Shown here piece after piece: positions 25,959 to 64,000 of a stretch of DNA of 64,000 bases. The notes beneath the pieces are model-generated. The model was given only the letters and a program-made list of their open reading frames with translations. It searched no databases and was not told where the DNA came from. The number at the start of each line of letters is the position of its first letter. Positions within the stretch are counted from its first letter, which is position 1. A program made the position numbers and the translations under genes. The stretch is from Methanoregula sp. (GTDB lineage Archaea > Halobacteriota > Methanomicrobia > Methanomicrobiales > Methanospirillaceae): contig CP112999.1 in NCBI GenBank assembly GCA_026625165.1, positions 1,178,001 through 1,242,000 of the forward strand, given 5' to 3'.

Positions 25959-26206
25959 GACCCGGCATGTCAAGGCAACCGGATTCTGATTCTTCATGGT
26001 ATTGATCCTCGGAAATAGGAACATCGGTATGTCGCTTGCCGAACTGCTCCCGGATATTCATAATGAATGGGATGAAGGCAGGATTTCTGGATGCTGATTT
26101 TCTTGCGGGATAAAAAAGGGGATCTTCATTGAGCGTAAGAAAACACTTTTATTAGTTTACTGCGATTCTGTATAGTCAGATGGGATGAGTTCCATCCATG
26201 ATATGC

Positions 26207-26433
26207 GGGGTCGTGGCCAAGCCCGGAATGGCGACGGGCTCCAGCGGTCTTTGCATCGTTCTCACACAAAGCAGATGATGAACAATGGGTCTACTGAATT
26301 GACTTCGTTCACAATTGTGTGAAGGAAGTCATCGAGAAACTCATCAGAGTTTCGAATTGGATGATGACCCGTTGGAGCACTGATGCATGTCGGAGAGACC
26401 CGTCGATCGTGAGTTCAAATCTCACCGACCCCA
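26207..26433 (+). tRNA. tRNA-Trp (anticodon CCA) with a 153-base intron
   Basis: Exons 26207-26244 and 26398-26433 fold as tRNA-Trp: acceptor GGGGTCG/CGACCCC, discriminator A, D stem GCC/GGC, anticodon stem ACGGG/CCCGT with loop CTCCAG+A, so the anticodon is CCA at 26241-26243, and T stem GTGAG/CTCAC. The intron interrupts after position 37, the canonical archaeal site. An intron in this tRNA is usual in Euryarchaeota. Confidence 0.95.
26245..26397 (+). ncRNA. Box C/D 2'-O-methylation guide RNA in the tRNA-Trp intron
   Basis: Box C TGATGA at 26276-26281, D' CTGA at 26294-26297, C' TGATGA at 26362-26367, D CTGA at 26380-26383. The D guide TTGGAGCA pairs with the anticodon loop of the same tRNA so that the fifth base before box D pairs with C34. 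The D' guide ATGGGTCTA pairs with the 3' exon so that the fifth base points to C39. This matches the known halophile intron, which guides methylation at 34 and 39. Between D' and C' are two extra hairpins, 26301-26330 and 26336-26353. Confidence 0.9.
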
Positions 26434-29511: not shown

Positions 29512-30496
29512 ATGATTTTTTTAAATGATAATTAAAAATAAAAATTTTCTTATCAAGTTCTTTTAAAAAAATTAATTTTTTAAAGTTGGATTTTTCGGCT
29601 CTGTAGAATTCCTCAATACGAATAAGAACTGAAATTGTTAACATCATTCTTGAGAGGTTATAGAGGATCACTTTAATTTTGATCTCCTTGATCTGGAGTC
29701 TGTATTTTCGAGCCTTGAGGGCTTCTCCGAACTTTCTTTTCAGGACGGAGAATACCGTTTCGACCTTATTTCTCTGATGATACTTATCTTCATCGAATGA
29801 CTGAGCGATTCGTCTTCGGTAATACCCGGAGATTCGTTTCCGTTTTCTGTTTCTGACCGGGATAAGGGAACAGGAGTTGAGGGAGTCCCGGATCAATTCA
29901 TGGATCTCTTCAGAGTCGTATCCTTTGTCCATGACATAGAGGTCGGATTGTCTGGTTCTGTGAGTTTGTTTCAGGAGTTTTTCAGCGTGAGGGATATCAT
30001 GGACCGGGTGCTGGGAGATCTTCAGACCGGTGATAATCTGACGATCAGTATCAACGGAGATCGAGGTTTTCAGGAACCGTTTTCTGGTCTTACCGGTTCT
30101 CCACGAATAATAATGGCTGGCATAGGAGCTGGTGAACCCGGATGAATCGATAGCAGTACAAGGGATCCTCTCGCCCCAGTCGTAGAACATTTTCATGAGC
30201 CGGTTAAGTAACCGGGTGAAAGTGAATGATCGGATCCGTTGACAGAACTTCTGGATAGTCGTGAAATGAGGTACTTCATCGAGGTGAATCTTCTCTCTGA
30301 GAGAATCCATGATCTCAGTTAGTTCGATCGTGTCCCGGTAATCTTCAGACAGATATTCTTTCAGGAGAAGGAGAATGAGTAACTGGTGTTGGGTATAGGT
30401 TTTTCTTGAGAACTTGGAAGAGAAAAGAGGAATTCTTGAATCTTTGATCAATCCGGATGATATTTCAACAAACCTGATATACCGGTTTGCTGACAC
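29420..30496 (-). CDS. DDE transposase (IS5/IS4-like)
   Basis: 358 residues from the GTG at 30496, which has AAGGAG 8-13 bases upstream. DDE-type features: [20 protein letters not shown] (first Asp), [13 protein letters not shown] (second Asp), and [21 protein letters not shown] (the Y-x2-R-x3-E-x6-K motif with the Glu). The frame has no stop within the element: it passes through the terminal repeat (EFYRAE) and adds about 50 residues of flanking DNA, overlapping the orphan gene. The core is intact and probably active. Confidence 0.85.
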
Positions 30497-30605
30497 TATA
30501 TCGTCTCCTTACAGGTTGATTGCATAACAAGGTAAGGAGACACCGTACCTTAGCTCTTTCGGTCGTCGGTACAACTCTGTTTTAGATCAGGTTTTCTACA
30601 GAGCC
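29597..30605. mobile_element. Insertion sequence, 1009 bp, IS5-like, with GGCTCTGTAGAA ends
   Basis: Terminal inverted repeats GGCTCTGTAGAA (29597) and TTCTACAGAGCC (to 30605) bound a single transposase gene. No convincing target duplication is seen (flanks ATTTTTC and AAAAAAAC). The same ends bound the short elements at 53740-53832 and, imperfectly, 63416-63624, so they are likely non-autonomous relatives mobilised by this transposase. Confidence 0.85.
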
Positions 30606-32395: not shown

Positions 32396-32499
32396 GTCGC
32401 AGCTCAAAGGTATCCTGACGGATATCTTCTCATGCTCCCTTTCGGTCGCAGCTCAAAGGTATCCTGACGGATATCTTCTCATGCTCCCTTTCGGTCGCA
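32396..32499. repeat. Tandem 49-bp repeat, two full copies plus a 6-base third
   Basis: GTCGCAGCTC starts at 32396 and at 32445, and GTCGCA again at 32494. The two 49-base units are identical. Each contains the near-palindrome AAGGTATCC-TGAC-GGATATCTT. On the minus strand this is a GAGAAGATATCC hairpin with a GTCA loop, of the dispersed type seen at 26336, 36715, 60967, 61021 and 63492. No spacers, so not CRISPR. Confidence 0.9.
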
Positions 32500-36244: not shown

Positions 36245-37425
36245 CAGCACCATTGAAATTTTCTGAAATTTATTTGTTCCACTCTCCGGATTTTATTTGA
36301 TTTTTTCGGAAAATTTTTAATAACACACAATCACTTCACTAATCGACCTCACGGATGCGACAATCACATCCTATCTGAGGACAGGCAGAGACACACCATA
36401 TCGCACATGTGGGGGGGGCCACCCCCACAACCTGTGTACCCATGCGACCCCCCCCAACCCCAAAAGACTTTTCCAACCCCAAAACCGGCAAAGTCTGCCG
36501 TCGTAAAAAGCACGATCACAACAGCAGGCCCGGCAAAAATGATTGGGGGGGTCGCAGGGGGTCGCACCACATTTTGGAGGGAGGGGGGTATCCCCATGAC
36601 CCATGCGACCCCCTGTGATCTCATGCATGGTTCACGCCAAAAAAATCGTCTCTGGCAGGGTTCCCTGCCGACGGTTGGGGGTGTCTGCCGTTCCGAAAGG
36701 AAGGGCAGACTTGAGAAGATTGTGAAACAATCTTCGAGTTCTCACCACTTTTTAAGGGAGGGGGGTGACCCCATGATCCCCCCCCGACTCCTCTTGAGGT
36801 CACGTGAGTTTCACTTCGGAAAATCGTCTCTGGCAGGGTTCTCTGCCCATGATCGGGGGGTCGCCCGTGACCGGGTCGTGACCCCTTGTGACCCCTCCAA
36901 CAAAAAAAGTTTTCAAAAAACGCTGACAGCCATACTCTCCATAGCGACAAAATATACAATAGCGATAAAAGTCACAGTTTTTGTCAGACATAACATCCGT
37001 CCGATTCGGGGGATGCGTCCTCTCAAAAAGATCCCTCAAACAGTTGGTCATACCTGAAAAATTATGAGAACATGTATAAAAAAATCCCGCTATGCCGTGA
37101 CACAGTCACCGCACAGTGTTCCTGTAACAGCTCATACCCCATATCAAATCGTTGCATCGACCATGGCGGGCTATCAGGGGGCAGGGTTTGGGAGGGGGAA
37201 ATTCTTTAGGACAAAATCCGCAACAATTGATAAGACAACCATTCTTTCCTGAATTCACTTATTATTCCGGATCTCTGCAATGCACGAATCGTACCCGGGA
37301 TATTTTCGTAAAGGAACTATTTCAAACTAAGCTCCTCACGGATCCATAGGAAAAATTATCCCTGACTGATAAAGTTAATCAGCATACACAAGAGATTATA
37401 CACATTAAAGGAACCTGCGATTGAG
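36245..37425. repeat. Non-coding region with G-runs, repeats and hairpins
   Basis: No gene. Runs of G or C of 5-9 are frequent, and open frames crossing it are Pro/Arg-rich artefacts. Repeats: AAAATCGTCTCTGGCAGGGTT at about 36642 and 36820, and a GGGAGGGGGGT...CCCCATGA segment near 36578 and 36754, so a unit of about 178 bases occurs twice. Between them are hairpins 36683-36710 (GTCTGCC/GGCAGAC) and 36715-36735 (GAAGATTGT/ACAATCTTC). The same two-hairpin pattern recurs in the MITE at 63416. 36960-37425 is AT-richer and shows nothing further. Confidence 0.75.
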
Positions 37426-60584: not shown

Positions 60585-61376
60585 TGTTCTGCTCTATACT
60601 TGTGAACAATGTGACGGGAAGGATTATTGTAGCTATGGTTGCGTGGCCCGGGCCAATCCGGCTTCCGGTAACTGCAAGGCAATTTCGTAGGGCTTGAGTG
60701 GTGCGGGGCGGACGGGAAATACCGGGGATGCGGAGTATCGTTCATCCTTGCTTTGCCACTGGTATAGGGGAGTGCCATTGAACCGGAGTGCAGCGGAGAC
60801 GAACAGTCCCGGCCGTACTGCATATCGCCCAAGGCCGGACCAGGTTACGGGACGCGGAACGTGGCCTGTCGCGGGCCAGGCTGGCCGCAACACCGAGATC
60901 ACTTACCTGCCCGCATCAACCGACGGGGGAGCCAACGCGGCGAGGACTGCCGAATGCAGTGGAGAAGATTTTCATCAGAAAATCGTGGATCTCCGAGAGG
61001 TCAACAAACCTTGAGGATGAGAAGGATTCGTCAGAATCCTTCGATGGCATAAGCCCCGTTGAGTGTAGCACCTCCAATGAATTACACGGATGAGCCGGTT
61101 TTCCACGCGCTCTATAAGCACAATTAATTGAATTGGTTACAACTCCAGGCAATTTTTGTAATCAGGTATTATAGGAAAAAATGGAAATACATGCGCAATT
61201 TTAAATTTTAACTAAAATTTGGGGTTTGAGTATAGCGCTTGCTGTCCAGAATCCAATCCCTCGCATCTTCACTTCCGGTTAATGCGCAGACACCAGAGCT
61301 GGCGCAGGAACATTTATTGTTGACCTCGTAAAGAAACGAAAAAAAGGTTCTTGAAAAATGCATTTTTATCGTTTAT
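60585..61376. other. 790-base gene-free region with hairpins
   Basis: No convincing gene. 60690-60930 is GC-rich, and frames of about 85-105 codons are open on both strands at once, an effect of composition. Hairpins of the dispersed type: 60967-60984 (GATTTTC-ATCA-GAAAATC) and 61021-61042 (GAAGGATTC-GTCA-GAATCCTTC). A TGGCC/GGCCA hairpin lies near 60862-60880. 61120-61376 is AT-rich and likely carries promoter or terminator sequence. Confidence 0.45.
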
Positions 61377-63205: not shown

Positions 63206-64000
63206 TCACCAACCAAAACCCTGAAACCTGATCCCAGGATTGCCTCTTGGGGCAGCCTTCTCCAGAATGCCAGTTCCGGAAGACTCCATGCCTTCAAAGT
63301 CGAGACTGCCATGAGGACGGTTGTCATACCAGTGAACGAATTCATCGAGTGACAAGAACTCATGTCTGAACCGTTTGCAGGTATGGAACTATTTCTCAAC
63401 TTTTCCATTGGTTTGGGCTCTGTAGAAATCATCGTTTTTCATAACGTTTTTGGGGGCGTTTGCCATTCCTTACAGGGACGGGCAAACTGAAGAAGATGTC
63501 CTGATAGACATCTTCGAGTTACATTGCCCCCGCCACTGCGGCAGCCCCCCTTGCGATATCCATTGAAAACCGGTTCATCATGGATCTCTTGTAATGATGT
63601 GAGATCAGGGATTTCTACATAGTCTTGGTTTGTTTGACGATGTTTCACCCATGCAACGATCGGTCAGATATCTCGTGTTTCAAGGTATTGCCTGAATTCA
63701 CTATCCCAATACCCATTCTCGTCCCTTCGATGAGCACCAGATTCACTGCCATGATCCATAATAAGTTCACGAAGAAAGCAGATCTGCCCGTATCCCTGGA
63801 CTGCACGTTCTACAACGATAATTGTGTTTTCCGTATTGATAGTGGCAGATTCACCGGTAGCGAGGATTTTACGTGATGAGTCATCCAGAATCGTGCAGAG
63901 TTTTAATCCGCTGAAGCCGTCTTCATACCAATCGATATGTCCGGCCGATATGCTATGTGGTCCCGTTCAAAGCGCACCCATTTTCTCTGCTTCTTCTTAG
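63206..64000 (-). pseudogene. Decayed rve/IS481-like transposase, split by a MITE
   Basis: Reading the minus strand across lesions gives an integrase core: ISAGHIDWYEDGFSGLKLCT, ILDDSSRKILATGE, IMDHGSE, IVAWVKHRQTN, then, after the inserted element, QTNGKVEK, FHTCKRFRHEFLSLDEFVHW, YDNRPHGSLDFEG. Lesions: a frameshift near 63945, TGA at 63664-63666 (from CGA), TAG at 63389-63391 (from TGG), and the 209-bp insertion at 63416-63624. The N-terminal part lies beyond the window. Confidence 0.8.
63416..63624. mobile_element. 209-bp MITE with 8-bp target duplication
   Basis: Ends GGCTCTGTAGAAAT and (complemented) GACTATGTAGAAAT, 12 of 14 alike and like the 1009-bp element at 29597. TTGGTTTG lies on both sides (63408-63415 and 63625-63632), a direct target duplication. 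The interior has the two hairpins of the family at 63458-63487 (GTTTGCC/GGCAAAC) and 63492-63515 (GAAGATGTC/GACATCTTC). It splits the transposase remnant at QTN. Confidence 0.88.

Follow-up and report, generated by a model that had tools for sequence, protein, structure and literature searches.

A dispersed family of short hairpins with constant GAG and CGA flanks and arms that change in pairs occurs in Methanoregula and its relatives. This family is rather probably a lineage-specific, transposase-less group of archaeal mobile palindromes, REP-like or SMR-like in character and known here from sequence, with its movement deduced from the pattern of copies. The hairpins are dispersed, stand in tandem and inverted arrangements, covary in their stems, occupy sites that are filled in some genomes and empty in others, and are in part carried by MITEs; a Y1/HUH transposase is absent. 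The analysis started from a 64,000-nucleotide stretch of a Methanoregula genome, hereafter the window, and its features are listed in the table below.

The core hairpin has the form GA-GAA-stem-NTCA-stem-TTC-GA and is frequently preceded by a second, different hairpin, often of the form CC-GA-stem-ATCA-stem-GA-GG. This upstream partner lies within a few bases of the core in 27 of 38, 28 of 37 and 21 of 32 copies from three genomes, where shuffled sequence gives 11.2, 7.0 and 6.8. A unit consists of one hairpin or of two adjacent hairpins, and copies are found as singletons, as tandem arrays, and as inverted dimers that have a TCGA in common. A sequence-only reading had proposed a two-hairpin arrangement at 36683-36735 and 63458-63515, and both loci were confirmed, the units folding far better than their shuffles (z of -5.1 and -6.5, respectively). 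The same reading had listed single hairpins at 26336, 32407 (in tandem), 60967 and 61021; covariance model R2 recognizes these at 26334, 32404, 32453 and 61019, with the exception of 60967, which lacks the TTCGA side and reaches an E-value of only 0.78. The 61019 hairpin, itself a member of the R2 training set, scores 1.7e-8. In the 32404 array, one A-C mismatch is present, which counts against the mobile-palindrome reading, and the linker TGCGACCGAAAGGGAGCA is similar to that of MITE-borne tandem units. Around the 36675 copy (window positions 36400-36900), G-rich and C-rich imperfect tandem repeats with a period of about 178 bp are also seen, in which GGCAGGGTTCYCTGCC is present twice.

Table. 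Hairpin units and associated mobile elements in the window
Feature	Position	Strand	Remarks
Two-hairpin unit, GGGGG-(hp1)-TT-(GAG..CGA)-GTT	36675..36740	+	Intergenic, outside any MITE; R1 87.8 bits
Upstream hairpin of the 36675 unit, GTCTGCC...GGCAGAC	36683..36710	+	
Core hairpin of the 36675 unit, GAGAAGATTGT-GAA-ACAATCTTCGA	36713..36737	+	R2 E 0.00014
Two-hairpin unit within MITE	63450..63520	+	Hairpins 63458-63487 and 63490-63517; R1 72.9 bits, R2 E 0.0059
Core hairpin, two tandem copies	32404..32480	-	32404-32431 and 32453-32480; 49-bp period
Two-hairpin unit	60992..61044	+	Upstream TCC-GA-GAGGT..ACCTT-GA-GGA 60992-61017, then GAGAAGGATTC-GTCA-GAATCCTTCGA 61019-61044
Two-hairpin insert in sR3 of the tRNA-Trp intron	26298..26359	+	Between D' box 26294-26297 and C' box 26360-26367; core hairpin 26334-26355
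MITE 63416-63624 with flanking duplications	63408..63632	+	Terminal repeats GGCTCTGTAGAAATC..; flanked on each side by the 8-bp target duplication TTGGTTTG
1009-bp IS with DDE_Tnp_1 transposase	29597..30605	-	Shares termini with the MITE; candidate for mobilizing it

The genome-wide statistics were obtained with search tools, the sequence itself being read in stretches around the matches. When the 36675 copy was used as a BLASTN query, related copies were found elsewhere. In the 2,174,862-bp genome, a search for GAGAA-N2-9-TCA-N2-9-TTCGA returns 36 matches, compared with two for the reversed control; eight of the 36 sit in IS copies and do not belong to the hairpin family. Covariance model R1, built from six copies, returns 66 matches in this genome, including 13 strong two-hairpin copies above 58 bits. 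Model R2 was trained on perfect 26-mers (26-base hairpins) only and recovers five hairpins from outside its training set (36713, 26334, 32404, 32453 and 63490), all with E-values of 0.006 or lower. Models and pattern search together put the copies in this genome in the dozens. As the proposal of a dispersed family had anticipated, the contexts and genera in which copies occur are unrelated, and when R2 was run against relatives, matches were obtained in 44 of the 232 genomes of the class.

The paired stem changes first noticed between two loci also hold across larger sets. Among pattern matches from three genomes, picked without a pairing requirement and with the GAGAA/TTCGA ends belonging to the search pattern, 171 of 222 inner positions form Watson-Crick pairs, as against 100±5.7 when the 3' arms are re-dealt. 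Thirty-two equal-length single hairpins, likewise picked without a pairing requirement, give a covariation score of 0.433 (0.132±0.020 when shuffled) and 46 doubly changed cells, versus 12 in the control. The 13 two-hairpin copies score 0.278 against 0.134±0.015, with nine pairs changed on both sides; they do not amount to 13 independent events, since one of them (63450) lies within a MITE and several others are MITE siblings. Although these shuffles ignore relatedness, the scores stand far above shuffled and slid-register controls alike, and the latter, together with the occurrence of copies in unrelated settings, render it unlikely that phylogeny alone produced the paired changes.

Mismatches in the counted set comprise eight G-T and no A-C (two-sided binomial p 0.008), and the folded strand is therefore probably the one carrying GAG..CGA. 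This asymmetry also bears on a mutational origin, in which one arm is overwritten with a copy of the other by template-switch repair, and palindromic stems drift in the absence of structural selection. Such repair is known for quasi-palindromes generally, accounts for perfect stems of free sequence and is compatible with the covariation. Correction alone, however, should leave G-T and A-C mismatches equally, and in the 32 single hairpins the loop letters are largely fixed while the inner stem letters vary, even if the GAGAA/TTCGA ends are part of the search pattern; this origin is accordingly considered improbable. The suggestion that the paired changes reflect a constraint on structure is supported by the covariation, the dispersed contexts and the G-T-not-A-C mismatches, although template-switch repair of palindromes may yield paired changes as well. 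In a mobile palindrome family, the folded strand, whether single-stranded DNA or RNA, may be the form that is recognized or tolerated, so that a copy would last only as long as its stem remains paired; foldability would then be kept by selection on, or recognition of, the single-stranded form.

Several copies lie inside stable RNA transcripts. The intron of pre-tRNA-Trp (26205-26433) holds a C/D box sRNA, sR3 (RF01133), which is the host of one copy; the hairpins are an insertion missing from most relatives. The spacer between its D' and C' boxes is about 62 nt here, compared with a few nucleotides in most relatives. Long inserts at this position are found in few genomes (G000, G140, G105, G109 and G008), not all with the GAGAA/TTCGA core. 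The spacer between tRNA-Cys and 5S rRNA (G000:C1:1863937-1864346) similarly measures 101 nt and contains two core hairpins; it is 98 nt long in G166 and close to zero in the congeneric G164 as well as in many other genomes. Other families possess different hairpins in this spacer, and two of these share the GAGAA/TTCGA ends. Filled and empty sites in a tRNA-intron C/D RNA and an rRNA operon suggest a tolerance of essential RNA genes for insertions of this kind. The core is in the sense orientation at all four transcribed-RNA host sites (tRNA-Trp intron and tRNA-Cys/5S spacer), which could indicate an RNA role.

An RNA role constitutes the main rival reading, although it is held to be unlikely. 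The hairpins would here be a functional structured RNA motif, transcribed and paired, whose conserved NUCA or GNRA loops, together with the tandem GA pairs, would be bound by a protein, perhaps in the processing or insulation of transcripts, with dispersal being secondary. The sense orientation in the four hosts, the strong folding of both window units, the tolerance of G-T but not A-C, the tandem GA flanks and the GNRA-type GTAA loops of other families all agree with it. Against it stand the patchy presence among close species, the many copies in arrays and within MITEs, the absence of an Rfam match and an orientation that is random with respect to neighboring ordinary genes (22 same, 25 opposite). 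Known riboswitches and ncRNAs were rejected, no Rfam family exceeding its gathering score for the hairpins: in the window Rfam identifies only tRNAs and sR3, and a tRNA is the only convincing match at the array loci. For a mobile palindrome, the same sites may mean that sense-oriented hairpins survive there without disturbing the flanking RNAs.

The random orientation also argues against 3'-UTR elements and terminators. In favor of ordinary intrinsic terminators or hairpins at mRNA 3' ends, some copies form overlapping inverted dimers, an arrangement that convergent genes might be expected to have between them; orientation relative to the upstream gene nevertheless shows no preference, a consistent T-run after the hairpins was not found, and one copy lies within a tRNA intron and another within an rRNA operon, making this origin very improbable. 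CRISPR-like repeats were likewise dismissed, because the arms differ from unit to unit and the spacing is a repeated linker. The GA flanks do not suit a kink-turn either, as they are symmetric GA/GA and have no three-base bulge. Enrichment of GA/GA flanks was not detected among the window hairpins taken as a whole and stands out only in the neighborhood of the family in G059 (nine, with about two expected).

MITE carriage is documented for the 63450 copy. Its host element shares GGCTCTGTAGAA termini with the 1009-bp DDE IS and lies in a putative decayed integrase-type transposase gene, as read from the translation. By the published definition of MITEs (PMC3119063), only this copy among those in the table shows terminal inverted repeats matching a resident transposon together with an 8-bp duplication; among MITE copies, target duplications are exact in three of eight cases and have one mismatch in two. 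MITE termini were sought and found absent at the 36675 and 61019 copies, the arrays and the tRNA-Trp intron copy, so the family as a whole is not a MITE. Spread may have proceeded partly with the hairpins as MITE passengers, partly via recombination between tandem units, and partly via a putative trans-acting activity. The IS occurs in several copies with terminal repeats GGCTCTGTAGAATTC, and the transposase reading frame of the 29597-30605 copy extends beyond the left end of the element, to 29420. In some MITE copies (at L021 and L034), a second two-hairpin unit follows the first in the opposite orientation after about 25 bp.

REP-type palindromes are bacterial and tied to Y1 transposases. 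The methanogen hairpins share with them the short, tagged form, the many dispersed copies and the covarying stems, and inverted dimers and tandem clusters add to the likeness that a true REP/RAYT system or an IS200/IS605-derived (PATE) system, mobilized by a Y1 transposase, would produce. Such a system is hardly credible here. Y1_Tnp (PF01797) has no match in the complete genome G000 (0 candidates) or in G140, and the other hairpin-rich genomes G059, G195, G199 and G064 fall outside the 29 genomes with a match. The genome has a single TnpB gene, and R2 yields nothing credible at TnpB loci. GTAG or CGTC tags beside the stem are absent, the flanks being GAG and CGA. Both REP/RAYT and PATE membership thus fail, because a Y1 transposase was not found and TnpB is unrelated to the hairpins.

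Comparison with described elements places the family near two groups. Bacterial REPs of the GTAG and CGTC superfamilies combine fixed tags with variable paired stems and tolerate G-T pairs, and CGTC repeats have no dedicated transposase (PMC3733652, PMC8266576, PMC3116915). Like them, the methanogen hairpins are short, with fixed tags and variable paired stems, and form singletons, inverted dimers and tandem clusters; unlike them, they are archaeal, have a GAG/CGA tag on both sides, lack a RAYT, and usually have a different upstream hairpin as partner. The SMR-A/B elements of Haloquadratum are transposase-free, about 80-110 bp long, lack target duplications, occur in up to tens of copies, tend to reside in other mobile elements, and have a mobilization described as 'enigmatic' (PMC3119063). 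The methanogen hairpins are likewise archaeal, dispersed and transposase-free. Copies of one SMR type, however, are commonly >95% identical and delimited by terminal inverted repeats (PMC3119063), whereas the methanogen stems diverge yet stay paired, copies keep only structure and a few letters, and the ends and duplications of non-MITE copies are undefined. PATEs, the IS605-related palindrome elements (PMC3119063), are likewise archaeal, palindromic and transposase-less, but the hairpins here have no Y1 transposase and none lies at the TnpB gene. The family therefore resembles bacterial REPs (PMC3733652, PMC8266576) and haloarchaeal SMRs (PMC3119063) but, on the tests carried out, belongs to neither. 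A covarying methanogen family in Y1-free genomes makes the spread of transposase-less palindromes, such as CGTC REPs and haloarchaeal SMRs, directly testable.

Within the class, high R2 copy numbers are confined to three genera of one taxonomic family and are patchy within those genera, ranging in a single genus from 0 to at least about 35 (per-genome counts near 33 being lower bounds). A scan of 393 genomes of the phylum gave matches at E<=0.001 only in that same family. A degenerate exact pattern with a perfect 9-bp stem retrieved 57 stretches from a set of about 85,000 species genomes, and every one comes from a Methanoregula or Methanomicrobiales record. This patchy occurrence among close relatives suggests proliferation in Methanoregula and its relatives. 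A viral origin was rejected, the pattern having no match in viral contigs, and no description of the hairpin family was found in the open-licence literature.

In G068, which belongs to another family, shorter-stem relatives of the form GAGAAGCCATCAGGCTTCGA are abundant. A bolder and rather doubtful version of the mobile-palindrome reading holds that this is a selfish archaeal element that would spread via a folded RNA or single-stranded form without a known transposase, its modular tandem-GA hairpins chaining and inserting into stable RNA genes, with a related hairpin grammar in other families of the order. One locus of G068 (L233, G068:C1:731498-731997) contains thirteen tandem 40-bp GAGAAGCCATCAGGCTTCGA units within longer hairpin chains. 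At two further loci from different genera (L048, G000:C1:1990726; L204, G059:C1:1709511), a hairpin lies directly 3' of a gene end, and the encoded tail, YGLT..EI, makes the gene a putative relative of restriction-modification methyltransferases.
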